A DNA stretch of 23,182 bases, from the IMG/VR virus record IMGVR_UViG_3300042731_006140, positions 1-23,182 of that record. One strand, 5' to 3'. This DNA is from a virus. The notes beneath the pieces are model-generated. The model saw nothing but the letters and a program-made list of their open reading frames with translations, was not told the origin of the DNA and did not search any database. The translations under genes and the position numbers were made by a program. Positions 8,734 through 22,996 of this stretch are shown piece after piece. How positions within the stretch are numbered: position 1 is the first letter of the stretch; each line of letters starts with the position of its first letter.

Positions 8734-9603
8734 TTATATAAACCTCCTTTCATCAAAACCTCCTGGAATGCCTTTCCAATTTATTGCTATTGCTTCAGAT
8801 GTATGTATTGATTCTTCATGTGCACATTTAATAATCCAATCTCGAATATCTTCTCTCTCATTTAATGCTTGAGAAATTAAACGAATTGCATCTTCAACAA
8901 ACATTGGATTCTTTGCTGCTATCTCTGCGATTTTTTGCTCATCTTCCCTTTTTATTATTGGATATGGAAGAGTCTTAAGTTTAGATTCGACAGTTTCAAT
9001 AATATCTTCTAACCAAACATAATTTGGTTCTACAGTTTCAACAACAATATTTGAAAATGATCTTTGATTATGAGGGAAACCACTAACGCTTTTAGATAAC
9101 TCAGCAGAGCATGGACAATATGATGAGTATTGAATTATTACTCCCTGAAAGAATTTAAAAGACATCTTTGATATACCAAATTTTCGAGATGGGTCTATTG
9201 GGTAATATTGCCCTTCAAACATGCACTTATAATAAATTGGAAATTTATTATTTGTAATTGGAGATTTTCTGTTTATTGGTAATCTAAAATTAAATTTCAT
9301 GAAACTTGAGTTTGTTTCAAGATTATTACTTAGATCTTTTAATATTTCTTGAATGAGTCTATGCTTTAAAGGAAGATCAAGATATTTCTTTAAAGTTCTT
9401 ATAAATCTTGACATTGAAATTCCTTTTATATTTTTATTTAGTTGTGTTCTCATAGAAACATTTGCAATTAGTTGGTGATGCCCGCCGTATTTTGATTCTA
9501 ATCTAAACGGAACTTCAACGTTTTCAACTCCAACTTGTTGAATTGGGATTTTAATTTCAGGTTTTGTAGTTTGAATATCAGGAAGGTTGTCTTTTATGGA
9601 CAT
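8734..9603 (-). CDS. folE2: GTP cyclohydrolase IB (FolE2)
   Basis: FolE2 converts GTP to 7,8-dihydroneopterin triphosphate, the entry step of folate and of 7-deazaguanine (preQ0, queuosine) synthesis. The 289-aa length is typical of the family. Diagnostic segments are HHQLIANVSM and KGISMSRFI (family 'KGTHMSRF', about residues 80-87). The metal/active-site segment SYCPCSAELS is followed by HNQRS (family 'PCPCSKEIS...HNQR'). The C-terminal ESIHTSEAIAI corresponds to the family 'ESIHNHDAxA'. The H in KG-T-H-MSRF is replaced by I here, which is a small departure. The start has AAGGAGG upstream. It lies between a zinc-ribbon gene and a small helical protein. In phages it may supply modified DNA bases, but no other pathway gene is in the window. 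Confidence 0.92.
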   Translation of the reverse strand: MSIKDNLPDIQTTKPEIKIPIQQVGVENVEVPFRLESKYGGHHQLIANVSMRTQLNKNIKGISMSRFIRTLKKYLDLPLKHRLIQEILKDLSNNLETNSSFMKFNFRLPINRKSPITNNKFPIYYKCMFEGQYYPIDPSRKFGISKMSFKFFQGVIIQYSSYCPCSAELSKSVSGFPHNQRSFSNIVVETVEPNYVWLEDIIETVESKLKTLPYPIIKREDEQKIAEIAAKNPMFVEDAIRLISQALNEREDIRDWIIKCAHEESIHTSEAIAINWKGIPGGFDERRFI

Positions 9604-9615
9604 ATTTAATCCTCC

Positions 9616-9900
9616 TTAAATAAGTCTCTCACTAACGATCGTTCTCATAACGTCTTTTTCTATTTCAGTTTTCCAAAATTCAAAAGCCACGTAATCTTCT
9701 GAATTTTCGAATAAATTAACGTTGTGTTCTAGGTCGTTTGAGCATATAAATATAATACCCTCATCTTCAAATAAATCGTTGTTTTTATCTCTTTCTATAT
9801 ATCCATCATCATTAAGATAGAAGTATTGTGAGCGGCGACGATATTTCATTACTATCTCGCCGCCACATTCTGGACAATATACTTTTTTATGTTTTGTCAT
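9616..9900 (-). CDS. Small zinc-ribbon-like protein
   Basis: A 94-aa protein that begins KHKKVYCPECGGEIVMKYRR. The CPEC knuckle and a later C-S-N-D-L-E-H (IICSNDLEHN) offer Cys2 plus Cys/His ligands, so a zinc ribbon is likely. An acidic segment lies between them. The ATG overlaps the beta subunit stop codon in an ATGA junction, so it is probably translated together with the polymerase beta subunit. A transcription-associated role is tempting because of this coupling but is not shown. No known family is recognised. Confidence 0.65.
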   Translation of the reverse strand: MTKHKKVYCPECGGEIVMKYRRRSQYFYLNDDGYIERDKNNDLFEDEGIIFICSNDLEHNVNLFENSEDYVAFEFWKTEIEKDVMRTIVSERLI

Positions 9901-12896
9901 TTATGTTCTACTCCCAAGACAGTCAGATAAGAGTTCAATAACTTGACTGATTCTGGAGTTGTATCTAACTCTTTTTTCTCATCTGACAAATCAAATTCTA
10001 TAAGATCTCTAATGTATTTATTCTTCAAGTCAATGCAATCTGATTTTGTTGTTAAAAACTCAAAGAGGTTTTTTGGTGCGTCATGCCCAATAATACAGGC
10101 AGTTTCCATTTCTCCACACCTTTGGCCTCCTTTATTTTTCCTTCCACCAAGTGGTTGTAATGTTCTTTTTGCATAAACACCAATTCCTCTTGCTGCTAAT
10201 TTTTCTTCAGCAATATGAACCATTCTAAAGAAATACATAAAACCTACTGCAATTGGATTAACTAAGAAATCTTTAGAAACAGGATCGTAAATTTTTTGTT
10301 TAAATTTACTATATGTATATTCCATTGCTTTTTTGAGGTCTTTAATTTTCATTGATTCAAAAGGTGGTTGAATAACTTGAAGATCAAAAATAAACTCACG
10401 AGTTATTACTTTGGGAAGTTGTTCAACAAATTGGTTATAATACCAACTATCTTTCGTTTTATCTACAATTTTTATGTAATTCAACAAATATTTTTTAACT
10501 TCATTGTTTGATTTTCCATCTTTTAACATTTCCACTAACTTCTTTTTTAAAGCATATAGAGACATTGAAAGATGTAACTCATAAAGCTGGCCGATATTCA
10601 TCCTGGAAATTATTCCAAGAGGATTAATACAGATGTCTAAATGCCTTCCGTCTTCGAGTTTTGGCATTTTTTCATGTTCAACAATTCTTGAAACAACTCC
10701 TTTATTTCCGTGTCTATTTCCAATTTTGTCCCCAACTTTTATAGGTCTTAAATACACACCATACATCTCAACCTTTAGACCATTAATTTTTTCTCGTTTT
10801 TCTTTATATTTTCCAACGAATGAGAATATATCTAAATTGTTTTCTTTAATAAACTTTTCAGCCTCTGCTCGAGGAAGTTTATCTTTAATTATTTTTTTAA
10901 GGAAATTTTCCCTTTCTTGTTGAACAGCAATTTTTTCTTCAACCCATCTTTCAAATTCTGGAATTTCTTTATTCCAATCATTTGCATATATGTTTATTTC
11001 TGGAATTATAAATTTTTTCTCTGCTTCTAATGAAATTGTTTCACTAAAAACAGAATATAAATCTTCTGAGTTCAAAGTTTTGATCTTAGCATATGGGTTT
11101 CCATTCTCGATAATATCAAACTCATCTGGTAATGGTTTAAATTTTCCCTTTTCTAAACTCAAAAGAACCTTATTTGGACTAATGGCAAATGACAAATCTC
11201 TGTAATGAACTGAAGTTAAAGTTTCTTCATTCACAAGTCGTTTAGAAATTACAATTCCATCTTCGTAGTTATTACCATAATATACCATTACTCCAGTCAA
11301 GAGATTTTTTCCGAAGTTTATATTACCATTTTTACAGAAGTTGCTTTCTGCTAAAACTTCGTTAGCTGTAAATTTATCTCCTGGTTTAACATAAACTTGC
11401 ATAAAATCCATATTTTCAACATAGATTTTTCTATATGAAATGTTAAAAATATCAATTTCGCCATCGTCATATTGAACTATAAGGAATTTTGTGTCGATGT
11501 GAAGAACAACTCCGTTCTTTTTTGCTCTCTTTACAAATTGAGTTTGGTCAGAATATAATCCTTCACAACCAGATGAAATCATGGGTTTGTCAAAGTTTTT
11601 TAACATGATCGATTGTCTCATCTGAGATGAAGCCATTTGAAGTCTAGTTTGGTCATCATGTTCATGGAACGGAACCATAGATACTGGAACTGAGATTGGT
11701 TGCTTATCTAGTTGTTTATTTGTAAATTTTAAATTTTCATCCAAATCTACATTTGGAAGAAGATTTTGTAAAACTCCACAATTATCTCTATCAGGCGTAT
11801 CAACTGGGCAAACTCTCCCGAACATTGTTGGGCAAACATCTCTTAAATGTTTTGGTATATTTTCTCTTTTAAATCCACCTGGTCCAAGAAGACTTATTCT
11901 AGATAACTTTGTTAATTCTTCAATTGGATTAATTGAAAAATCAAACTGAACAATATCAGAAACGTTACATTCAGAAATTATTTGATTTGAATTTATATTA
12001 AATTTTGGCTGCCTACTGGTTCTATTTGAAAAACACAAATCAAATATATTTTTTGATATTTTAGAATATATTACGTATTCAAAACATCTTATACGTTTAT
12101 TTATAAAAAGAGTATCATCAACGTATCCCACTCTTATTGCTTCAACCAATTCATCTAGTATAGTTGGTTGTTTCATAAATTTTGCAGTTAAAATATCTAC
12201 TTTTGGGATTAAATCAAGAGCATACATAATATCTTCGCCCTTTGATTTTGCATTATATTTTGAATATTTCCTTCCAACTTCATGTATAAAATCATCTTGT
12301 GTATAACCTTTAGATGATTCTTTATATAGATTTAAGTCATACATCAAAAGTTCAAATAACTCTTTGCTTTTTTCGTTTGCATTTTTTATTTCTTTTTCGT
12401 ATTTGTTTAATAGAGTGTCTAATCCAAAATATGCAATCATTAGTAATATAAGAGAAACTTTCTTTCCAAGAAAACTAACTTTTACAAAGGGCTCTTCTCG
12501 ATCTTTAAAGATCATTAATGTTGCAACGTTCGTTCTAAATTTAATTGTTTCTCCTCTTGTAACAATTGGTATGTCAAACAATTGAAACAAAGGAATCTTT
12601 TTTCTTCCATTTATTAACATATAATTATTGTTAACTAATTTTGGAATAAATATACTTAGATCAATAGAAGAGTTTCCTTTTTGGAGTCTAATTGCCAATG
12701 TTTGCTTTAAGGTTTTTGTTAATTCTCCAGATGAGAATCTTGAATCTTTTAATCCCAATTCAGTTATATTAAAACCCAATTCTTTTACTGGTTTAACTAT
12801 TTCACTAACTATATCCTCCATCATATTATAATCAGTTTCTCGAATTTTAAAAATGTTCTTTTCGTTTAGCTTGAAAATCGGATTTATAATGTTCAT
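9897..12896 (-). CDS. rpoB: Phage multi-subunit RNA polymerase, beta subunit (single chain)
   Basis: This forms one half of the catalytic cleft of a cellular-type RNA polymerase. The protein is 999 aa, against about 1340 in E. coli, and the N-terminal lobes are shortened. Segments in order: FIPKLVNNNYMLINGRKK near residue 85-100; RISLLGPGGFKRENIPKHLR and CPTMFGRVCPVDTP (about 333-368), the fork-loop region; YYGNNYEDGIVIS (about 538-550), with the E-D pair near the active centre; KVGDKIGNRHGNKGVVSRI (about 719-737); INPLGIISRMNIGQLYELHL (about 756-775); and QPLGGRKNKGGQRCGEMET to LTTKSDC (about 912-952), the C-terminal anchor that contacts beta-prime. All hallmark segments are in one chain. 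The start overlaps the beta-prime stop (ATGA). Confidence 0.95.
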   Translation of the reverse strand: MNIINPIFKLNEKNIFKIRETDYNMMEDIVSEIVKPVKELGFNITELGLKDSRFSSGELTKTLKQTLAIRLQKGNSSIDLSIFIPKLVNNNYMLINGRKKIPLFQLFDIPIVTRGETIKFRTNVATLMIFKDREEPFVKVSFLGKKVSLILLMIAYFGLDTLLNKYEKEIKNANEKSKELFELLMYDLNLYKESSKGYTQDDFIHEVGRKYSKYNAKSKGEDIMYALDLIPKVDILTAKFMKQPTILDELVEAIRVGYVDDTLFINKRIRCFEYVIYSKISKNIFDLCFSNRTSRQPKFNINSNQIISECNVSDIVQFDFSINPIEELTKLSRISLLGPGGFKRENIPKHLRDVCPTMFGRVCPVDTPDRDNCGVLQNLLPNVDLDENLKFTNKQLDKQPISVPVSMVPFHEHDDQTRLQMASSQMRQSIMLKNFDKPMISSGCEGLYSDQTQFVKRAKKNGVVLHIDTKFLIVQYDDGEIDIFNISYRKIYVENMDFMQVYVKPGDKFTANEVLAESNFCKNGNINFGKNLLTGVMVYYGNNYEDGIVISKRLVNEETLTSVHYRDLSFAISPNKVLLSLEKGKFKPLPDEFDIIENGNPYAKIKTLNSEDLYSVFSETISLEAEKKFIIPEINIYANDWNKEIPEFERWVEEKIAVQQERENFLKKIIKDKLPRAEAEKFIKENNLDIFSFVGKYKEKREKINGLKVEMYGVYLRPIKVGDKIGNRHGNKGVVSRIVEHEKMPKLEDGRHLDICINPLGIISRMNIGQLYELHLSMSLYALKKKLVEMLKDGKSNNEVKKYLLNYIKIVDKTKDSWYYNQFVEQLPKVITREFIFDLQVIQPPFESMKIKDLKKAMEYTYSKFKQKIYDPVSKDFLVNPIAVGFMYFFRMVHIAEEKLAARGIGVYAKRTLQPLGGRKNKGGQRCGEMETACIIGHDAPKNLFEFLTTKSDCIDLKNKYIRDLIEFDLSDEKKELDTTPESVKLLNSYLTVLGVEHK

Positions 12897-15589
12897 ATTA
12901 TTTTTTCTCCTTTGAGAATCTTATCCATAACGCCAGAATATCTTCCTTCATGAAGGATCCCTTGTAATATACTTCGTTTTGGATTTGAAAAAGCCATAGC
13001 AAGTATCCAACTTTCTTGATGTGGCACACTCTGGATGCTATAGAAATTTGGTTCAATTTTATCTCTATTTTTTAATAATCTCCACTTTCTAAAATCTTTC
13101 CACATAAGCTGAGAAACTACACATTCAAAATGAACATGATGAATATTTTTATTATAAACGTCAAATAACGAATCTACTATTTCTATATAATTTTTTCTTT
13201 TAAATTTATGAAGTAAGGATGTAACAGAAGCTAAGTCGCCAATAATATCTTGTTGACGCATGTCATTAGATTTAGCTCCTTTTATTGCTGCTCCAGAAGT
13301 ATGAAATGTTCGAAGAACTAATTGAGTTGATCTTTCTCCAAGAGTTTGTGCTGCTATAATTCCAATAAACCTACTATTCAAAACTTTATATAATTCTCCA
13401 TAACATTTTTTACAAATCTTGGGGCTCTTACATAAAATTGGGCTTCTTATTTTAATTACTTTTCCAACATTATTTTCATAATTTTCTTCTGTGATTAATT
13501 CATAACCATCTTTGCTGGTTTTCTTCCAACGATCAACTAACATAGAAGCTTTTCTTTTGTTTTTAACATCTACTTCTAAGCAATCTGCTGTTCCACAATC
13601 TTCAACATCCTCGCTAATTTGTAAGTTTGCGCATGTAAAGATTAGTTTCCTTGATAAATATCCAGAAGTTCCTGTATTTAATGCAACGTCCAGAAGGCCT
13701 TTTCTACAACCATAAGTTGAATAGAAAAATTCTTCTTCTGACAAACCATCTAGCAAACTATGCTTTATTGGCAAAGGTAAAATTTCACCGTCGAAGTTTG
13801 AGATAAAGCCTCTGGTTAGAATTAGTTGTTTAACTTGATCCCAGCTACCTCTAGCTCCTGATTCGATCATATATGAGTATGCAAACTTATTTTTTAAAAA
13901 ATCAGTAACTTTTTTATCTGACAAAGCAGTTAATTCTTCTCTAAAATTTCCCGTATATAATTTGTTTTTAAGCTCATCTGCTTCTTCTACTAAAAAGTCA
14001 TCAAGTGACATGGTTGAACCAAACAATGTAGCATATTTAAAACCAATTCTTTTTATTTCATCAAGAATTTTTGATGCTTCATTTCCTGAATAATTATTTT
14101 TGATATTGTTTAATATATCAATTAAGGTTTTTTTGGTTACAACTTCATCCACCAACTCGTAATCTTCGGGGAGACATTCGTTAAAGATCTTGCGACTTTT
14201 TGTAATTTCCTTTTCTTTAAATTTAACTTTGTTATTTAGATTTTCAAATTTATTTGATGTTAAGGCATAAATTCCTAATATTACATCTTGACTTGGAGTT
14301 GTTGATAAATTTTTATTTGCTGGACTGCTTAAATTTTGTGTTATGAACATTTTTTCAATTACTTCTTGTTTTGCTTCTTCAGTAACTGGAATATAAACAG
14401 CCATTTGATCTCCATCAAAATCTGCATTAAATGGTGGACAAACCAAGGGATGGATCTTGATTACAGAACTGATAGTTAACTTTATTTTAAAACCTAACAT
14501 ACCAAGTCTATGTAAAGATGGTTGTCTATTCAAAATACATACTTCATTTTTAATAATATCTTCACATATTCTATATAAGACTGTTGATTTTGTTTCAATA
14601 CATTTGTCAACAAAATCAATTGCTTTATTGAGTAATTTATATTTTCCAATTTCAATTATCTTTTTAGCAACTGGTAATTTAAATATTTCTAAGACCATAA
14701 AATATGGGAGCGCACATTCAGTTAAATTTAAAGTTGGGTCTGGAACAATTACTGCTCTCCCAGAAAAATCAATTCTTTTTCCTAAAATATTTCCTCGTAT
14801 TAATCCTTCTTTTTTTGACATCTTTGCTAAAATTTCAGTATATAGCTCATTTACATCTTTTTGTAATTGTTTAAAGTAAGTATAATATAAAACTTTATCT
14901 TTATGAAGGTTAATGATAGTTTCCCTCATTGCTTCTTTTTTAGTTAGTATCTGAACATAATATCTATTTATTTTGTCCATAAGTTGTTTATTTTTTCCGC
15001 CTACTGGAGATGCTGGCCTTAGATCTGGTGGTAAAACAATAACATTTTTTATCAATAAATTATCAATATTATCTAAAATCATTTTCCACTCTTTGAGACC
15101 ATCTTCTGCCCCATCAGTTGCTATAATTTCAACGAGCTTTCTAATCGCTTCTGTTTTTTCCCAAGTTTGTGCACCTTTTGGAATTTGCTTTTGAGAAAAC
15201 TCAACAGCAAGGTTGGCACCATCTAGGTATAAAATGCTTTTATCTTGTTTCATTAAATCATCCAATGCGCTTTGTAGATTTTTTCCTTCTATATTAGTCA
15301 ATAAGTCATAAAATAATGGGTTTATAACTGGGATTGGAAGCGCAATTTTTGCAAATCGTTTTCGTCTTTCGTCACTATTGACAATATCGACGTTACAAAA
15401 ATCACATTTCCCGCCAGATTTTGAAACTCCATAATATTTTCCACATTGGCATGTATAATTTTTAATTGGACCAAAAATTTGCTCAGAGAATAACCCATTT
15501 GGGTGGTAATGCTTTTTTCCCATGATTTTTATAGACGTCACTTCGTCTAGATTTTCACAAAATTTTTCATAGTTTAAAATTTTTGGCAT
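12893..15589 (-). CDS. rpoC: Phage multi-subunit RNA polymerase, beta-prime subunit (single chain)
   Basis: This is the catalytic, magnesium-binding subunit. The protein is 898 aa, against about 1400 in E. coli, so it is compact. Features in order: GLFSEQIFGP and zinc finger 1, CQC-x12-CDFC (C47, C49, C62, C65); VLPPDLRPASPVGGK (rudder/lid region, about 185-199); GNILGKRIDFSGRAVIV (about 266-282); ILNRQPSLHRLG (about 352-363); NADFDGDQMAVYIP (388-401) with D390, D392 and D394 for magnesium; SGARGSWDQVKQLILTRGF (bridge helix); GCRKGLLDVALNTGTSGYLSRKL (trigger loop, about 627-649); zinc site 2, DCGT...LCKSPKICKKCYG; and QLVLRTFHTSG. It starts four bases after a 68-aa gene, with a GAGGAG site. 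The sequence looks bacterial-like rather than split as in phiKZ-type jumbo phages. Confidence 0.96.
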   Translation of the reverse strand: MPKILNYEKFCENLDEVTSIKIMGKKHYHPNGLFSEQIFGPIKNYTCQCGKYYGVSKSGGKCDFCNVDIVNSDERRKRFAKIALPIPVINPLFYDLLTNIEGKNLQSALDDLMKQDKSILYLDGANLAVEFSQKQIPKGAQTWEKTEAIRKLVEIIATDGAEDGLKEWKMILDNIDNLLIKNVIVLPPDLRPASPVGGKNKQLMDKINRYYVQILTKKEAMRETIINLHKDKVLYYTYFKQLQKDVNELYTEILAKMSKKEGLIRGNILGKRIDFSGRAVIVPDPTLNLTECALPYFMVLEIFKLPVAKKIIEIGKYKLLNKAIDFVDKCIETKSTVLYRICEDIIKNEVCILNRQPSLHRLGMLGFKIKLTISSVIKIHPLVCPPFNADFDGDQMAVYIPVTEEAKQEVIEKMFITQNLSSPANKNLSTTPSQDVILGIYALTSNKFENLNNKVKFKEKEITKSRKIFNECLPEDYELVDEVVTKKTLIDILNNIKNNYSGNEASKILDEIKRIGFKYATLFGSTMSLDDFLVEEADELKNKLYTGNFREELTALSDKKVTDFLKNKFAYSYMIESGARGSWDQVKQLILTRGFISNFDGEILPLPIKHSLLDGLSEEEFFYSTYGCRKGLLDVALNTGTSGYLSRKLIFTCANLQISEDVEDCGTADCLEVDVKNKRKASMLVDRWKKTSKDGYELITEENYENNVGKVIKIRSPILCKSPKICKKCYGELYKVLNSRFIGIIAAQTLGERSTQLVLRTFHTSGAAIKGAKSNDMRQQDIIGDLASVTSLLHKFKRKNYIEIVDSLFDVYNKNIHHVHFECVVSQLMWKDFRKWRLLKNRDKIEPNFYSIQSVPHQESWILAMAFSNPKRSILQGILHEGRYSGVMDKILKGEKII

Positions 15590-15592
15590 ATT

Positions 15593-15799
15593 TTACTCCT
15601 CGCTACCAAATTTGGTTAAGAACTTGCCAAACTCTACAATATGTTTTTTTACTATCTTTGCTACAACCACGTTTAAGTCTGGCATTATAGCTTTGATTAT
15701 CTTTTTTACTTCATCTTCTGTTAATTTAGTTTCATGTTCTTCTATAGTATCAATTACAATCTTTTTTATAAGACCTACTAAAGCTTCGTCATCTTTCAT
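15593..15799 (-). CDS. Small helical protein between the E2-like gene and rpoC
   Basis: The start chosen is ATG 15799-15797 (68 aa). It lies one base after the E2-like stop codon (TAA-T-ATG), with AGGA ten bases upstream. A longer start at 15844 lacks a ribosome site. The product is nearly all helical and charged, for example LIKKIVIDTIEEHETKLTED and VKKIIKAIMPDL, with amphipathic patterning. No family is recognised. It sits four bases from the beta-prime start and so connects the conjugation cassette with the polymerase genes. It could be a polymerase accessory factor or a small adaptor, but there is no sequence proof of either. Confidence 0.6.
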   Translation of the reverse strand: MKDDEALVGLIKKIVIDTIEEHETKLTEDEVKKIIKAIMPDLNVVVAKIVKKHIVEFGKFLTKFGSEE

Positions 15800-15800
15800 A

Positions 15801-16346
15801 TTATGTAATCCTACTTGTTTTATAAAACTCTTTGCCTGGTGCATAATAACAATGGTCTAAATTCCAATGGTGTAGATCTTCTCTTATACTTCTCCAGAGA
15901 TGATAATTTAAAAAAGTTTCATAGTAATCTGGATTAAAGCAATAATGACCATCTCTATAATCTACATTTGGATGGTTTGCAGTAAATACAAAAATACTTT
16001 TTATCAAATAATTTTCAGATATACTATAAGGTGCTACTCCATGTCCAGTATTATCTTTAAAACGATTACAATGTATTTGGTATTTTTCAATAATTAAATC
16101 ATTACATACTTTCTCTAATAAATAATATTTTCCATTTTTCTTTAAATATTTTGGAACTATTTTATCATAGAAAATGCAATTCAAATGTGCTTCCGTCTTA
16201 TAGATTTCAATGTCTTTTAATAATCTTAAAGAAGTATCTACATTTTTATAAAATTTTATATCATTTAAAAATGATCTTGTTGTGTTTCTTGGTTTATAAT
16301 TTTTAGGCGCCCCCATATTCTTTAATGAGGTGAATACAAAATTCAT
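15801..16346 (-). CDS. E2-like (UBC-fold) protein with HPN...Cys motif
   Basis: This 181-aa protein carries VFTANHPNVDYRDGHYCFNP (about residues 120-139). In ubiquitin-conjugating E2 enzymes the pattern is HPNh...G.hCL, with the active Cys eight residues after the Asn. Here H125-P126-N127 and C136 are nine residues apart, one residue longer than most E2s. The preceding ENYLIKSIFVF fits the strand before HPN, and the following YHLWRSIREDLHHWNLDH fits the helix after the active-site loop. The N-terminal 100 residues are basic and less recognisable. The start at 16346 has AGAGGAGGG upstream and overlaps the E1-like gene by 44 bases; the alternative ATG at 16316 has no site. I infer thioester-linked Ubl transfer; unproven. 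Confidence 0.7.
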   Translation of the reverse strand: MNFVFTSLKNMGAPKNYKPRNTTRSFLNDIKFYKNVDTSLRLLKDIEIYKTEAHLNCIFYDKIVPKYLKKNGKYYLLEKVCNDLIIEKYQIHCNRFKDNTGHGVAPYSISENYLIKSIFVFTANHPNVDYRDGHYCFNPDYYETFLNYHLWRSIREDLHHWNLDHCYYAPGKEFYKTSRIT

Positions 16347-17163
16347 TTACCCTCCTCTCAAACCGTACAACATAACTAGAATCGTCTTTTTCGATCAATT
16401 GTAGTAATTTAGGTATTACATCCACAGGAATATTCAAACTATCCTTTGGAATTATACTTCTGGTGTTTTCTAAACCACCAATGACAATTTCAATATCTTG
16501 TTTTTTATTTTTAGTATAAATTGGTTTGAGGTTTTCTTCAATTTGGATCAGTCTTTCAGAACCTTTATAAGCATCACAAATCATATCTTCTCGATTCTGC
16601 AAAATTCCCTGTATGTCTTCTTTAACTGCTGGTATTAAACTGTTTATATCTACTGTTTGAACTAATTGGTTCTTTAATAGTGTGTATATTTGTTCACTGT
16701 TTATTATTCTTGTTGCAAAAAACGCGGCTGTATTTATTTCATCTTTCATTAAGTTTATTAAATATCTTCCAGGAATTGGATTATTACAATAAACATTTTT
16801 CTTACAATTAATTACAAGAAAATTTTCTGAAATATATAACTTCATGTCAATTTCTTTTTTTCTTGTACAAATAATATCTCTACAATCTATCACTAAATCG
16901 CATTTTGGTAACTTAGTTATTCCTTCTTCGTATTTTTCATGTATCTTTGTAACTTCGACATTATTACTAGCAAATCTAAATACCGCGTTTACTTTTGAAT
17001 CTCCTACGTCAGTTTTCTTGAACATTGACGTTGCTAAATTTTTTACCTCGACAAAATCGGGGTCTATCGTTACGAGATGCTTCACTTGATCTAGTTCTGA
17101 AAGGTGCTTACAAAGAAAACTACCTAAGCTTCCAAGACCTATTACACATATTTTTTCAAACAT
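16303..17163 (-). CDS. ThiF/E1-like Rossmann protein, divergent second copy
   Basis: E1-like proteins adenylate the C-terminal Gly of ubiquitin-like proteins. This 286-aa protein has CVIGLGSLGSFLC (nucleotide loop, G9-x-G11-x-x-G14) and TIDPDFVEVKNLATSMF (D34, N42), where the Arg usually found after NLx is Ala. It also has GDSKVNAV (K57) and DLVIDCRDIICTRK (D93 and D96, like the 'D-C-T-D-N...R' segment of MoeB/ThiF). Candidate Cys residues are C120 and C126. The C-terminal 120 residues resemble nothing I know. The lost Arg suggests reduced or altered adenylation, or a partner-binding role. The start has AAAGGAGGT at good spacing. It overlaps the E2-like gene, suggesting the two act as a pair. 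Confidence 0.75.
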   Translation of the reverse strand: MFEKICVIGLGSLGSFLCKHLSELDQVKHLVTIDPDFVEVKNLATSMFKKTDVGDSKVNAVFRFASNNVEVTKIHEKYEEGITKLPKCDLVIDCRDIICTRKKEIDMKLYISENFLVINCKKNVYCNNPIPGRYLINLMKDEINTAAFFATRIINSEQIYTLLKNQLVQTVDINSLIPAVKEDIQGILQNREDMICDAYKGSERLIQIEENLKPIYTKNKKQDIEIVIGGLENTRSIIPKDSLNIPVDVIPKLLQLIEKDDSSYVVRFERRVNEFCIHLIKEYGGA

Positions 17164-17234: not shown

Positions 17235-17693
17235 TTAACCTTTCTTTCCGGTGGGTTTCAAGAACTCAAGACGATCTTCTTCTTTAAGAACATAATCGTT
17301 ACCCACTTCTTTTCCGTCTACTAGACCAGTTGACATACGAGTTACATTTAGAACTTCTCGTAAGTATTCTGCAACTTCACCAACTGTTCTACCAACAACT
17401 GGAAAGTTCCCCGTATTTGCCCCACAGGATACTTCAATGGTTGTTGCTGTTCTATTACCAAAATTAGCTTCTGGCTTATTCATAACACTTGTAAGTTGTG
17501 CCTGAAGTCCACTCATTGGCTTTCCTGTGGTAACAGTAGCTGAAGCTCCACTATCCTGTTCGGACAAAATGGCTTCAATTACTTCAGCTTTTGGGCTCTT
17601 GCTTACGCCTGAAATTCCCAATTCTCTAAATGCCATCTTTTTCATTTCTTTGGCATTCATGTTTTCAAGTTCTTGACGTGTGTAAAGTGGCAT
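17235..17693 (-). CDS. Ubiquitin-like (beta-grasp) protein with N-terminal SAP/Rho-N-like domain
   Basis: A 152-aa protein. Residues about 84-149 show a beta-grasp pattern: TTIEVSCGA (strand), NFPVVGRTV (strand), VGEVAEYLREVLN (helix), TGLVDGKEVG (strand), and YVLKEEDRLEFLKP (the 'L..gDrLeF' segment of ThiS/MoaD-like and bacterial ubiquitin-like proteins). It ends in TGKKG with a free C-terminal Gly and no extension, so no processing step is needed. PRTRC protein C-type Ubls end in a comparable GxKG. Residues about 6-45 (RQELENMNAKEMKKMAF... to EVIEAILSEQ) look like a SAP/Rho-N helix-extended-helix domain that could bind nucleic acid. A Ser/Thr/Gly-rich linker joins the parts. It lies between two E1-like genes, with AGGAGG before the ATG. 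Confidence 0.82.
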   Translation of the reverse strand: MPLYTRQELENMNAKEMKKMAFRELGISGVSKSPKAEVIEAILSEQDSGASATVTTGKPMSGLQAQLTSVMNKPEANFGNRTATTIEVSCGANTGNFPVVGRTVGEVAEYLREVLNVTRMSTGLVDGKEVGNDYVLKEEDRLEFLKPTGKKG

Positions 17694-17701
17694 ATTTCCT
17701 C

Positions 17702-18391
17702 CTATTTCATAAATTTTCTTACATTTCTTGATTTTGGTACAACTGACATTTGTTCAATATCAAAGTAAACCTCAGAAATACCAACATTACCCTGAATAAC
17801 AACATTCCAAAATGCAAAACACATAATAGATGCAGCTGCTAGATTGGCAAAATATAACTGAGGCTCAGATTTTGATAGTTCTTCGCAAGACATTTCATTT
17901 GGAGATTTATCATCTGGGTTTGCAATTTCTGGGTGATGAAGGCACAAGTCTGGCGTTAAGTCACGACCCTCCTTTCTGACATAAATTTGTACACTTCCAT
18001 CTATCCAGTCATTGCCTCCAGAAATCAAAATTCCATTCTGTAATGTCCAGAAATAATTTGATACGATTAATCTTGTTTTGTGATTATCAACACAGAGAAG
18101 GACAATATTATTCTCTTTTATTACTTCATTAATCGTATCATTTATTATAAATTCAGGATGGCTATTAAAATTAATGTTTGGATATTTCTCTTCTAGTTCG
18201 ACTGCTTTTATTTCAGCTTTATTTCCCATCCTCTCAAATTCCTGCCTTTCTAGATTCTTATATTCATATTCGTCACCATCGACTAGCAGGACATTAATAT
18301 CTTCTTCAAATTTAGAATAATTTAGGAATCTACATAATCTTCCTGATAAAATAGATCCGATTCCCCCAAGTCCAATTATAGTAATATCCAT
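17702..18391 (-). CDS. ThiF/E1-like activating enzyme (PRTRC ThiF-like)
   Basis: A 229-aa compact Rossmann protein likely to adenylate the Ubl C-terminus. MDITIIGLGGIGSILSGRL gives the nucleotide-binding loop (G7, G9, G12). LLVDGDEYEYKNLERQEF gives D38, D40, N46 and R49, the conserved 'D.D....NL.RQ' of ThiF/MoeB/E1 proteins. K62 fits the catalytic Lys position and CVDNHKTR (D102) the ATP/Mg site. SPNEMSCEELSKSEPQLYFAN places C169 where PRTRC ThiF proteins carry a Cys followed by acidic residues, a candidate thioester site. It lies between JAB and Ubl genes, with 7-base and 8-base gaps. AAAGGA precedes the ATG. It is the better-conserved of the two E1-like proteins in the cassette. Confidence 0.85.
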   Translation of the reverse strand: MDITIIGLGGIGSILSGRLCRFLNYSKFEEDINVLLVDGDEYEYKNLERQEFERMGNKAEIKAVELEEKYPNINFNSHPEFIINDTINEVIKENNIVLLCVDNHKTRLIVSNYFWTLQNGILISGGNDWIDGSVQIYVRKEGRDLTPDLCLHHPEIANPDDKSPNEMSCEELSKSEPQLYFANLAAASIMCFAFWNVVIQGNVGISEVYFDIEQMSVVPKSRNVRKFMK

Positions 18392-18398
18392 AGTTTAA

Positions 18399-19700
18399 TT
18401 ATCCTTTCAAATATTTTCTTAACCAAGCTATTGGTTTATTCTTTAGATTTTCTGGAATTTCATCGGGCTTAGGGATTTTTTCTCCAGCTCTATGTCCATC
18501 TTCAAACACTTGACCATAAAGAAATTCGGGGCTCTCATGTTGTTCTTTAACAATATTTTCTATGTGTTGCTCTCCGAATTTTTCTTTATCTGAACCGGTT
18601 CCATCATCTGCTGCCATGAATACAGTATCATCTGGGATAAAATTATTTATTGGGTTTTCTACTTCATCGTCGTCTGGTTCTGTATATTGTTCCAGTGCCC
18701 AATCTATTTTGGTATCTCGAAATACACACTCACAGCATGGATTAAAGTCATCGTCATCAAGATCATAATCATTATCATTATCAAATGATTTAGCTTGTTC
18801 ACTTATAACCTTTTGGTCGAGTTCAAGGGGATTTTTATTTACAAGCGGATTTCCAATGTGAGCATAATATGCTTGCCAAAATTCCGCCCAACCTTGCTTA
18901 TCAACTCTATTCTGAATGTTTTTCCAGTTCCCTTTATTAAATGTGGGAACTACATACTTAACTTTCTTCAACCAATTTCGGTTAAATGTTTTTTGGGAAA
19001 CTGGAATATTTATAAAATATCTGGGTGTATAATATTTAGATTTATATGGTTCGGATTCCACTTCTATAAGTTTCCCGTTTATATATTTATAAACTTTTCT
19101 ATAAGATTGAGTTTGAATTTCTTCAATCTTTTTTAATTTATCTATGTAGTCTTCTGGTTCTCCAACAAATCTTGTTCCATTTGCAGTTATTGAAAGAGAA
19201 ACTCCCACGTTGTCACTTGCAACATAACCAACAGTGATATGTAAGCCATCATTATCTGTATACTCATCTTTATCATCAGTTGGAGAATGAAATGCAGACA
19301 TGTTACCGTGACTATGAATGTCTCCAAGTAAAGTATAATCTCTTATTTGTATATTTCGATCATATTCGCATTTTGCCATGCTTACTTCTTGCTTTGGAAT
19401 AACAATTTTAAAGTTCTCGGTGTTTTGGTTGTAAAATAATAAAGCAACTGCTTCAGCTCTATGTTTTTCATGAACTGCTTTAAAGAACTCAACAACTTTC
19501 GCGAACATGGGTGCTGGAATCATGGGTATATTTAAAGAGGCTGTTGATTTAATTTCATTTAAAATAGAAATTTTGTCAACTTTAGCTATACTTTCTAAAA
19601 CACCCATTTTTTTCTTTAAATATACTCCATCTTTTGCAACTATATAACAAATATCGTCTTCTGGAAGTTTTTCGCTATCATGTAAATAAATATTAAACAT
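18399..19700 (-). CDS. JAB/JAMM metallo-isopeptidase (Prok-JAB, PRTRC-A-like)
   Basis: The start chosen is ATG 19700-19698 (433 aa). AAAGGAG lies nine bases upstream, and it overlaps the 863-aa gene by 8 bases. A frame-open start at 19796 would overlap far more. The JAMM zinc motif is complete: E83 (AEAVALLF), H129-S-H131, seven residues, S139, two residues, D142 (DIHSHGNMSAFHSPTDDKDE). The AFHSPTDDKDE segment closely resembles PRTRC-A / Prok-JAB proteins, as does the N-terminal YIVAKDGVYLKK. JAMM enzymes cleave isopeptide bonds after a ubiquitin-like C-terminus. The C-terminal half is unusual: an Asp-rich stretch, a CCEC cluster, then an acidic low-complexity tail. Its neighbours are the E1 and Ubl genes. 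Confidence 0.87.
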   Translation of the reverse strand: MFNIYLHDSEKLPEDDICYIVAKDGVYLKKKMGVLESIAKVDKISILNEIKSTASLNIPMIPAPMFAKVVEFFKAVHEKHRAEAVALLFYNQNTENFKIVIPKQEVSMAKCEYDRNIQIRDYTLLGDIHSHGNMSAFHSPTDDKDEYTDNDGLHITVGYVASDNVGVSLSITANGTRFVGEPEDYIDKLKKIEEIQTQSYRKVYKYINGKLIEVESEPYKSKYYTPRYFINIPVSQKTFNRNWLKKVKYVVPTFNKGNWKNIQNRVDKQGWAEFWQAYYAHIGNPLVNKNPLELDQKVISEQAKSFDNDNDYDLDDDDFNPCCECVFRDTKIDWALEQYTEPDDDEVENPINNFIPDDTVFMAADDGTGSDKEKFGEQHIENIVKEQHESPEFLYGQVFEDGHRAGEKIPKPDEIPENLKNKPIAWLRKYLKG

Positions 19701-22284
19701 TAAGGAATCTCCTTTCGTCAAGATCAAATGAAAGAATAGATAATCTATTTTTAACAAACATACCATAAAAGTTTGGTAATGCTTCCACTTTTTCAAACTC
19801 CATCCATTGATTTTGCGTATATCTTGGACTTAAAAATCCAAATGGTTTGGCGTTTCGTCTTGTCTCGTTATTAAATGTTTGTATCTGTGGTTGACTAGCA
19901 ATCTTATACAAACTAGTTCGTATGTACCTTATTCCCCTATTATATGGATTACTAAATAATATTACTGGGTCAGAACTAATTCTTTGACTAGTAATAATTA
20001 TATCTCCTGGTTGTAATTTTATTTTTGTTAAGTCAATTGGAGAAATAGTTAATTTATTTTGTTCTGAATCATCTGTTGGAATTATCTCAAAATCTTCCTT
20101 TAATTGATCTGGCCAAATAGTACAACAATTTGAACATAATACTAATGGAATATCTCCGCCGGTATCTGTTAAAAATCCAATTATCATATTAATATCTTTT
20201 TGTGGGAAATTACATATTCGTGGTTTGTTGGATTTAATCATAGTTCCAGAACGAATTCCATTATATTCATTTGTTATATGTCTAACAGTCCCAGTTTTTA
20301 TAAACATATAATTAGGAGAAGTATATTGACGTAGTGTATCTTGTTCGATAAATGGGTATGAAATAATACTACCATCATCAGATTTTGCGTTAATATAAAG
20401 TTTACCACTATCTTCAGTTTTAAATTCAGTAATAGTTTTTGGTTTTATCATTTCAGTTGGATTATCCCAATCAGAAATAACTATCCAATCTCCTACAGAA
20501 AACTCTAAAGTATAGTTAAAACTTTTTACTTTAAGTGTTTTTCCACCATTTATAAGAAGTTCTGAAATGACATCATTAAAATTAGGCACAACATATTTAC
20601 AATTTTCTTTTTTAATAATTCCATTTGTTGGGTGGAAGTAACCAAGTCCGGCATCACTTTCATTAGTGTATTTATCCACTAGTCCATATAATCTTGTTCC
20701 ATGCATAAATATTTTTGGAATTTTTTCTAGTTTATTATGATCATAAGTTTTGGTCCAAATATTATTTGAGTAATTAATTAAACGTTCACTACCAGTATTC
20801 GTATCAATAAATTTAGCTTGAAGGTTACCATTTCTATGAACACCCATACCGATATATCTACCACAAAATGCTACTTGAGATGGCAGCCCACTGACAGTTC
20901 CAGTAGTAAGTAAGTATTCATTTCCTTTTTTTAATTTTATTCCATCTATTTCAGGATCTTTTAGGTTTACTTTTTTAATATTTTTTATATTCTCAAGTAA
21001 ATAAAAATCTTTTCCTAGTTTTGCCTCAACTTTTCCATCAAAACTATATCTCAAATATTGAAGTTCTTTATAACCTTTTACGCCGTAACTATCAATTTCT
21101 ACTATATCTCCTGCTTTTATTTTGGTTCCTTTAATTGTAGCTGTATGAAAACACCTTTGTTCTTCTGTTTTCTTTCTAAGAAAAGCTACTACTTGTTTTG
21201 TTAGTTTCATTATGATTTTTTTATTAGACGGAGAAAGCAGTCGAACATGTGAAATATTTCCACATTTTTTACCTAAAAATGAAATAACGAAAAACCTTTT
21301 CCCTTTTATAATAATTTCATCTTCAATAAATAGATTTATTCCATTTCCAAGATTAATATAATTTGCCATATTATCATAAATTTTTGTGCTATCAGTTTTT
21401 GTAAGATTCGTAACAGAAGAACTTTTATCAAATAATCTTGTAATTTCAGAGAAGTTTGAAATTCCATAATATTTTTCATTATGTTTTCTGCGCGAAATAT
21501 AGACGTCACCTAATTCTAATAGTATTTCTTTAAGATTTCTTTTATGTGGAACCCAATCTACATTATAAACAAACATTGGATCAACTTTAGTATAATGTTG
21601 CCAACTTAATAAGTCACCAACATATTGATTATTTTCATAAGAAATTACGTTTGTTACATAATCTTCGTTAAAAGTCGATCCCCAAAAACGATTGATTACT
21701 CCGATAATTGCTTCATCAATACTAATATAATATTCTCCACGACCCAAACATACAGCTTGATTTTCTGATATGTTATAAAGGGGAATTTTATATAGAATAT
21801 CGCCAATCCCTTGAAGGGGTAAGTGCCGTAGAAAAACCATTAGTGTGGATAAACTGGCGGTCTCAGTATTAAATACCATAATATATTCTATGAAAGGAAA
21901 TGCTAAAGTATATTTTTGTTTTCTTTTTCTAGCAGGTAAATTTTTATAACCAAATTCAATTAGTTTTCCTTGGGTCTTTAACTTTGATAAAGCACCACTT
22001 AAATTAACGCTAGCAATAATAGTTCTTATTTCTGGATCTTGTTCAATAACATAAACAGTATGTCTAGAAGATAACTTTTTAATAAGTCTACAATTTCTTG
22101 GAATAACAAGCTCTCTGCTTTTTGGTGCACCAAATGAAGCATTCATTCGATCAAGAAGAACATCAGTTTCGATAAACTTGTTGTTTGTAATATCTATTGA
22201 TTTTTCACCTTCGCCATAAGCAGAAACGTCACAAGTATAAATTTTAGAAAAATTTTCATTAATTCGTAGTTCTTTAATTATCAT
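19693..22284 (-). CDS. Large protein with Prok-E2 family D (PRTRC-B)-like domain
   Basis: An 863-aa protein. Residues about 125-210 match the PRTRC-B / Prok-E2_D pattern: LAFPFIEYIMVFN, then PLYNISENQAVCLGRGEYYIS, then INRFWGSTFNED. In that family the Cys of 'h.hC.G' (here C179) is the proposed catalytic Cys of an E2-like fold lacking the usual HPN His. The remaining 650 residues are beta-rich with recurring 'h.h..GD.h.h' units (IKAGDIVEI about 389-397, LKKGNEYLL about 451-459, FSVGDWIVI about 595-603, LQPGDIIIT about 757-765). These suggest repeated small SH3-like barrels for substrate or partner binding. This is far longer than usual PRTRC-B proteins. The start overlaps the upstream stop (TAATG), with GAGGTG before it. 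Confidence 0.72.
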   Translation of the reverse strand: MIIKELRINENFSKIYTCDVSAYGEGEKSIDITNNKFIETDVLLDRMNASFGAPKSRELVIPRNCRLIKKLSSRHTVYVIEQDPEIRTIIASVNLSGALSKLKTQGKLIEFGYKNLPARKRKQKYTLAFPFIEYIMVFNTETASLSTLMVFLRHLPLQGIGDILYKIPLYNISENQAVCLGRGEYYISIDEAIIGVINRFWGSTFNEDYVTNVISYENNQYVGDLLSWQHYTKVDPMFVYNVDWVPHKRNLKEILLELGDVYISRRKHNEKYYGISNFSEITRLFDKSSSVTNLTKTDSTKIYDNMANYINLGNGINLFIEDEIIIKGKRFFVISFLGKKCGNISHVRLLSPSNKKIIMKLTKQVVAFLRKKTEEQRCFHTATIKGTKIKAGDIVEIDSYGVKGYKELQYLRYSFDGKVEAKLGKDFYLLENIKNIKKVNLKDPEIDGIKLKKGNEYLLTTGTVSGLPSQVAFCGRYIGMGVHRNGNLQAKFIDTNTGSERLINYSNNIWTKTYDHNKLEKIPKIFMHGTRLYGLVDKYTNESDAGLGYFHPTNGIIKKENCKYVVPNFNDVISELLINGGKTLKVKSFNYTLEFSVGDWIVISDWDNPTEMIKPKTITEFKTEDSGKLYINAKSDDGSIISYPFIEQDTLRQYTSPNYMFIKTGTVRHITNEYNGIRSGTMIKSNKPRICNFPQKDINMIIGFLTDTGGDIPLVLCSNCCTIWPDQLKEDFEIIPTDDSEQNKLTISPIDLTKIKLQPGDIIITSQRISSDPVILFSNPYNRGIRYIRTSLYKIASQPQIQTFNNETRRNAKPFGFLSPRYTQNQWMEFEKVEALPNFYGMFVKNRLSILSFDLDERRFLNV

Positions 22285-22675: not shown

Positions 22676-22996
22676 TTACCTCACTTTTACTTTATATTGC
22701 ATATCCCCAGCTTTTAAATACTCAACTTTGTCAATTGGTACAGATCTCCATGCTTTTTTCTCAAGATCATAAACTCGTATGATTTTATTCTCTTGCACAA
22801 GTTTGAGTATATTTGCCATATCTATGCTTCTAGATTTTGGATAATCTTTTTTTGGAATTCTGGAAAAATCTAGAGTACAACGCATAATTCTTGTTGTTCC
22901 ATCCTTTTTCTCAAATTTTACAGTTACTTCGCCTTCTTCTCGAATTTTTCTCCAGAATCCAATTGCTGTATCAATTATATTTTTATCTACTGCCAT
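22676..22996 (-). CDS. Small phage protein, DUF2693/SH3-like
   Basis: A 106-aa protein with VTVKFEKKDGTTRIMRCTLDF at about residues 24-44, a block resembling the 'V.F.KkDGt.R.M.CTLdf..IP' pattern of small SH3-fold phage proteins (DUF2693 type). It is followed by RIPKKDYP and a later IIRVYDLEKKAWRSVPIDKV, whose 'VYDLEK..WRS' part also recurs in that group. The match is from memory. Function unknown; possibly a nucleic acid or protein binding barrel. A GAGGAGG site lies upstream, inside the end of the preceding partial gene. Confidence 0.6.
   Translation of the reverse strand: MAVDKNIIDTAIGFWRKIREEGEVTVKFEKKDGTTRIMRCTLDFSRIPKKDYPKSRSIDMANILKLVQENKIIRVYDLEKKAWRSVPIDKVEYLKAGDMQYKVKVR

Follow-up and report, generated by a model that had tools for sequence, protein, structure and literature searches.

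A compact HPN-type E2-like protein encoded beside E1, Ubl, and JAB genes in an operon of uncultivated phages

Gene content of the operon

The stretch of DNA analyzed here (hereafter the window), a virus record of 23.2 kb, most likely comes from a tailed phage, since it encodes a T4-type terminase. It carries a set of genes whose order is conserved: a WYL_2-like small protein, E2D, JAB, E1a, Ubl, E1b, E2x, a small ORF, rpoC, and rpoB. About 60 relatives keep an operon in which E1a, JAB, and Ubl are intact. The genes from E2D to rpoB all lie on the minus strand. E2x (15801–16346) encodes a compact, predicted UBC-like E2 of 181 amino acids; its start codon stands in the context AGGAGGG-TAA-ATG, with the Shine-Dalgarno sequence GGAGG at 16351–16355. 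An earlier note, made from the letters of the sequence alone, had drawn attention to an HPN motif and a downstream Cys in this ORF. We confirmed both, the HPN at residues 125–127 (codons at 15966–15974) and the predicted catalytic Cys136 (codon at 15939–15941); residues 125–136 read HPNVDYRDGHYC.

The 5' end of E2x overlaps the 3' end of E1b by 44 bases (16303–16346), as the earlier note had observed, taking the overlap as a sign of tight coupling and the E1-like gene as the partner E1 of E2x. The coupling holds in part, since the two genes overlap by 1–65 nt in most relatives, so that the arrangement is common but not universal. The partnership does not stand as proposed: E1b (16303–17163; Pfam ThiF, 3.4e-11), a second E1/ThiF-like protein, keeps GxGxxG, D34, K57, and D93, and the ATP-site Arg is found in 0/65 members, hence E1b is probably not the activating E1. 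The loss of this Arg makes E1b more likely a scaffold or pseudo-E1 than an activator, a role suggested by its sequence. E1b also ends in a TG[AG]A tail that is strictly conserved (mostly ETGAA or TGGA, final Ala in 63/65) and looks Ubl-type. We considered whether the E1b C-terminus is itself a beta-grasp Ubl and rejected this: hhalign gave a probability of 0.2–0.5 against Ubl and against E. coli ThiS and MoaD.

The Ubl gene (17235–17693) encodes an N-terminal Rho_N/SAP-like domain, detected as Rho_N in 14 of 20 members, followed by a ThiS/MoaD-like beta-grasp with the C-terminus GKKG. Ubl tails end in KG, and many members carry at least one residue past the last Gly; in L003, L020, L040, and L055, for example, the residues after the last KG include C, DRKGC, and VILTK. 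Such extensions imply proteolytic maturation. In one relative the Ubl gene (L004:6447–7406) contains two Rho_N-Ubl units in tandem, both with GRKG at the end; ADETA follows the first unit, and the whole resembles a polyubiquitin-like precursor.

E1a (17702–18391; PRTRC_ThiF, 3e-12) is a predicted active, PRTRC_ThiF-like E1: R49, Q50, K58, D102, and C169, which include the ATP-site Arg, Lys, and Asp and the candidate catalytic Cys, are present in 63/63 members. JAB (18399–19796; PRTRC_A, 4.3e-17) is a PRTRC_A-like JAB/JAMM metallopeptidase with E115, H161, H163, S171, and D174 in 64/64, and its likely role is the processing and removal of Ubl. E2D (19693–22284) encodes 863 amino acids with a Prok-E2_D-like N-terminal region (Pfam Prok-E2_D, 1.3e-4, below the gathering score); N171 and C179 are present in 58/58 members, spaced N-7-C, as in HPN-7-Cys but with no His-Pro.

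Downstream of E2x lies a small conserved protein gene (15593–15844), with small ORFs at the equivalent place in L001, L003, L065, and L075; its product had no significant family match. It is followed by the phage RNA polymerase beta' gene rpoC (12893–15589; Pfam RNA_pol_Rpb1 domains), whose product is 58–70% identical in three relatives, and by the predicted beta subunit gene rpoB (9897–12896), assigned by position and sequence; an ORF after rpoC recurs in relatives. Elsewhere in the window, the WYL_2 protein (an Sm-like SH3 barrel; 22676–22996) heads the operon and is conserved in relatives, and a FolE2-type GTP cyclohydrolase I gene lies at 8734–9603 (Pfam E = 1.7e-67). In one relative, a long NSIGDSIR-like tandem repeat protein (L001:15012–15839) sits between the RNA polymerase genes.

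Homologues and predicted fold of E2x

E2x gave nothing usable against Pfam, NCBIfam, and PHROGs, and a Pfam scan of the window protein returned no family at E ≤ 1. A search of viral contigs by a pattern based on the window E2x alone found no relative, and tblastn of phage records found no match. Since these direct searches came back empty, we sought relatives through the neighboring E1 and rpoC. The E1 at 17702–18391 led to one related contig with the same gene order and an HPN-8-Cys ORF at the equivalent place; alignments of E1b and the RNA polymerase beta' subunit yielded about 120 loci; and an iterated profile search identified an E2x-like ORF in 97 sequences, 66 of which are non-redundant. 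Nearly all sit between the E1b gene and rpoC, and they are only about 12–30% identical to the window E2x. In the genome collection, an E2x subfamily pattern found none, a scan that reaches close relatives only.

Both the His and the Cys are present in all 66 non-redundant homologues, and the full HPN in 59/66 (variants: HPH in three; HVN, HCN, HAN, and HPL in one each); the HPN-8-Cys spacing is found in 55/66. In a 62-row alignment, full invariance is confined to H125 and C136, with P126 in 59/62, N127 in 58/62, and a second Cys, C166, in 49/62. The earlier note had said that its reading would fail if homologues did not conserve C136 or the HPN, and the reading withstands this test. A chance motif was rejected on counts: among about 6,300 ORFs at 124 loci, 80 contain HPN.{7,8}C, 79 of them in the E2x family, against an expectation of 0.014 in shuffled window ORFs.

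Several weak signals, and no single strong score, agree in relating E2x to eukaryotic E2s. Two of the 62 members matched Pfam UQ_con (best E = 0.0059, below the gathering cut-off). A PDB search with the family profile returned only two chains at E ≤ 10, both Pex4-type E2s (E = 0.23 and 0.84); these matches are weak, yet align HPN to HPN and Cys to Cys. In hhalign, the E2x family scored a probability of 63 (E = 7e-5, a single comparison) against four UBC sequences, and unrelated controls scored 0.1–0.2. Of the four, the UBE2K sequence was matched to the PDB, with full-length identity.

The AlphaFold model of the window E2x has a pLDDT of 80.6 and a pTM of 0.72, with low confidence over residues 1–35; that of a compact 108-aa member reaches 95.9 and 0.85. 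In VIA-align, the best 50 rows were all UBC/UEV folds or BubB for the window model (Z 5.3–6.3) and all UBC E2s for the compact model (Z 4.3–5.3). Foldseek returned nothing below E = 0.2, hence no significant E-value, for either model. A Z of 4–6 by itself can reflect a common arrangement; the case for a UBC fold, at moderate Z, is that every top row belongs to one fold and that independent sequence evidence points the same way. Together, the conservation of H125, N127, and C136 and the predicted fold bear out the earlier suggestion of a UBC-like E2 in a tailed phage. The compact model begins at strand 1, and its alignment to UBC proteins starts near their residue 30, so that helix 1 of eukaryotic E2s, which serves E1/E3 docking, appears to be missing.

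Relation to known E2s and gene clusters

The residue count between HPN and Cys had been taken as a departure from eukaryotic E2s. This proved not to be the case: human UBE2K (HPNISSVTGAIC) has eight residues between Asn and Cys, as in E2x, and Pex4 (HPNVNFKTGEIC) likewise has HPN-8-Cys, and the extra residue is therefore no mark of a new lineage. The marks of a new lineage in E2x are its sequence divergence, the missing helix 1, and the operon context. Compared with eukaryotic UBC E2s such as Pex4 and UBE2K, E2x shares the HPN-8-Cys active site and, in its model, the UBC beta-meander, but lacks the N-terminal helix 1, has a core of about 110 amino acids, and shows very low sequence similarity.

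The earlier proposal that E2x is distinct from the Prok-E2_D type was borne out. E2x did not match Pfam Prok-E2_D (PF14460), and the operon's own E2D keeps the Asn and Cys without the His-Pro; hhalign of E2x against E2D gave a probability of only 3.8, with N and C in register. Type 6d E2s have no His at the HPN position (PMC1779556), unlike E2x, which keeps it in 66/66; E2D lacks the His and keeps N171. BilB of the BilABCD antiphage system, from bacteria, resembles E2x in being a UBC-like E2 that has Ubl, E1, and JAB as partners. Its active site differs, with a CEHH motif and a downstream His (PMC11354881), whereas E2x has the upstream HPN; the BilB-type CEHH motif is absent from E2x, and no column after C136 is invariant. 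BubB of the Citrobacter Bub operon (PDB 9eae) matched the window model in structure (Z 6.1, rmsd 3.5 over 105 residues) but is 5% identical to E2x, and the likeness is one of predicted structure. The type 6a E2-E1-JAB fusion (PMC1779556) also has an E2 domain, bacterial in this case, in which the classical His and Cys are present; there the E2 is fused to E1 and JAB and has a metallo-beta-lactamase partner, whereas E2x stands alone. Because E2x falls outside Prok-E2_D and BilB, scores below the UQ_con cut-off, and has the UBC active-site hallmarks, we file it as a new E2 family that would work like an HPN-type E2. In the literature searched, mostly outside subscription journals, we found no report of a phage E2x family.

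Prokaryotic clusters of E1, E2, Ubl, and JAB are already known, and the operon is a PRTRC-like version of them in which two E2s are predicted to be active. Clusters of the 6d/PRTRC type were described in 2006 (Iyer et al., PMC1779556), and the phage operon shares with them a Ubl with a C-terminal Gly, a PRTRC_A-like JAB, a PRTRC_ThiF-like E1, and a Prok-E2_D-like E2. To these it adds E1b, the HPN-type E2x, a Rho_N/SAP-fused Ubl, and adjacency to rpoC/rpoB. Judged by sequence scores, the phage core is related to PRTRC and lies outside the NCBIfam curated families (PRTRC_A, 62.3 bits vs. a cut-off of 101.8; PRTRC_ThiF, 46.4 vs. 144.75).

Possible function, alternatives, and exceptions

Most known HPN E2s of the eukaryotic type come from eukaryotes and some archaea, and among bacterial Ubl systems the best studied, CBASS Cap2 and Bil, act in antiphage defense. 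In the phages described here the pathway would instead belong to the phage: a large clade of uncultivated phages that encode RNA polymerases of their own carries a compact HPN E2 beside a Prok-E2_D-type E2 and E1, Ubl, and JAB. Given this conserved set of E2-like proteins, Ubl tag, activator, and remover, these phages probably tag proteins during infection. We think it likely, on present evidence, that E2x is a stand-alone compact HPN-type UBC E2 that is charged with the phage Ubl by E1a and passes it to targets. The JAB peptidase would trim the Ubl precursor to a ...[KR]KG end; E1a, with ATP, would adenylate the Ubl C-terminus and take the Ubl on Cys169; E2x would then receive the Ubl on Cys136, with the HPN Asn steadying the transition state. 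With E1b, itself probably inactive, holding or recruiting it, E2x would pass the Ubl on to a nucleophile, a lysine or another, on a phage or host protein, JAB would reverse the attachment, and E2D might also carry Ubl as a thioester. For each step the required residues are in place and invariant; the chemistry, the order of transfer, the role of E1b, and the targets we infer from the genes present and where they lie. From context, the likeliest targets are the transcription or replication machinery, because of the Rho_N/SAP-like domain of Ubl and the fixed position beside rpoC/rpoB; gene content and position suggest a setting in transcription or DNA. A more speculative extension has two conjugation branches, of which the HPN branch (E1b-E2x) would have its own modifier: the E1b tail would act as a built-in Ubl-type tail, and E2x would join it to the phage RNA polymerase, switching the transcription program. 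This strikes us as very improbable.

Against the E2x cascade, no E3 and no target was identified, and the Prok-E2_D-like E2 could serve E1a instead. E2D may be the first Ubl acceptor, with E2x a UBC-fold E3-like protein or specificity relay that takes the Ubl from E2D and not E1a. Two predicted active E2s in one operon, with E2D N171 and C179 present in 58/58, would fit this, as would a PRTRC-like core with E2D but without E2x in L075; we nevertheless judge it unlikely, as HPN is a usual feature of E2s that are loaded by E1 and pass their load to amines, and E2x occurs in the L069 record, a fragment where neither E1a nor E2D was detected. That same record, with E1b and E2x and no core, together with the adjacency and usual overlap of the two genes, could also be read as a sign that E1b and E2x form a module apart, which E1a does not serve and which has a modifier or substrate of its own. 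The absence of the ATP-site Arg from E1b in 65/65, the fragmentary nature of the L069 record, and the fact that E1b-E2x nearly always lies beside the core operon make this reading quite doubtful.

The predicted catalytic role of Cys136 could also be questioned: E2x might be a non-catalytic UEV-like scaffold in which Cys136 is structural or metal-binding, and a second Cys, C166, is indeed common. C166 is replaced in 13/62 members, however, and H125 and C136 never are, and a scaffold would leave the HPN-to-Cys arrangement unexplained; we regard it as improbable. A metal site with C166 is likewise unlikely, as C166 is not conserved. The operon might instead perform ThiS/MoaD-like sulfur transfer, with E2x handling a persulfide or thiocarboxylate, as Ubl resembles ThiS/MoaD and JAB is also found in sulfur-related contexts (PMC1779556). 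Among the neighboring genes, however, no rhodanese or sulfurtransferase was noticed, and two E2-like proteins and the Ubl precursors point to protein conjugation; we hold sulfur transfer to be very improbable. Charging of E2x by E1a remains our preferred reading, and the operon would offer a minimal natural system for studying E2 origins and protein tagging by a virus of bacteria.

E2x and the core operon are strongly though not absolutely linked. In L075, E2D-JAB-E1a-Ubl occurs without E1b/E2x; L065 (768–2057) keeps E1b and lacks E2x, the next ORF being the small helical protein that precedes rpoC; and in the L069 record, which is a fragment of 92 kb, E1b and E2x are present and no E1a was detected. 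A genome scan with rpoC gave matches only at about 30% identity and hence no host clue. The cultured Bacillus phage vB_BauM_KLEB27-3 (OM634661.1, L130) has PRTRC_A-like and ThiF genes and no E2x match, and might serve as a laboratory model for the core system. We also noted that a 321 kb phage record with a divergent rpoC (L087:3–2655; L228:12828–16620) has a separate cluster with E1 and JAB that includes a 584-aa protein with HPN-7-Cys (HPNVSSSGQVCMGD).
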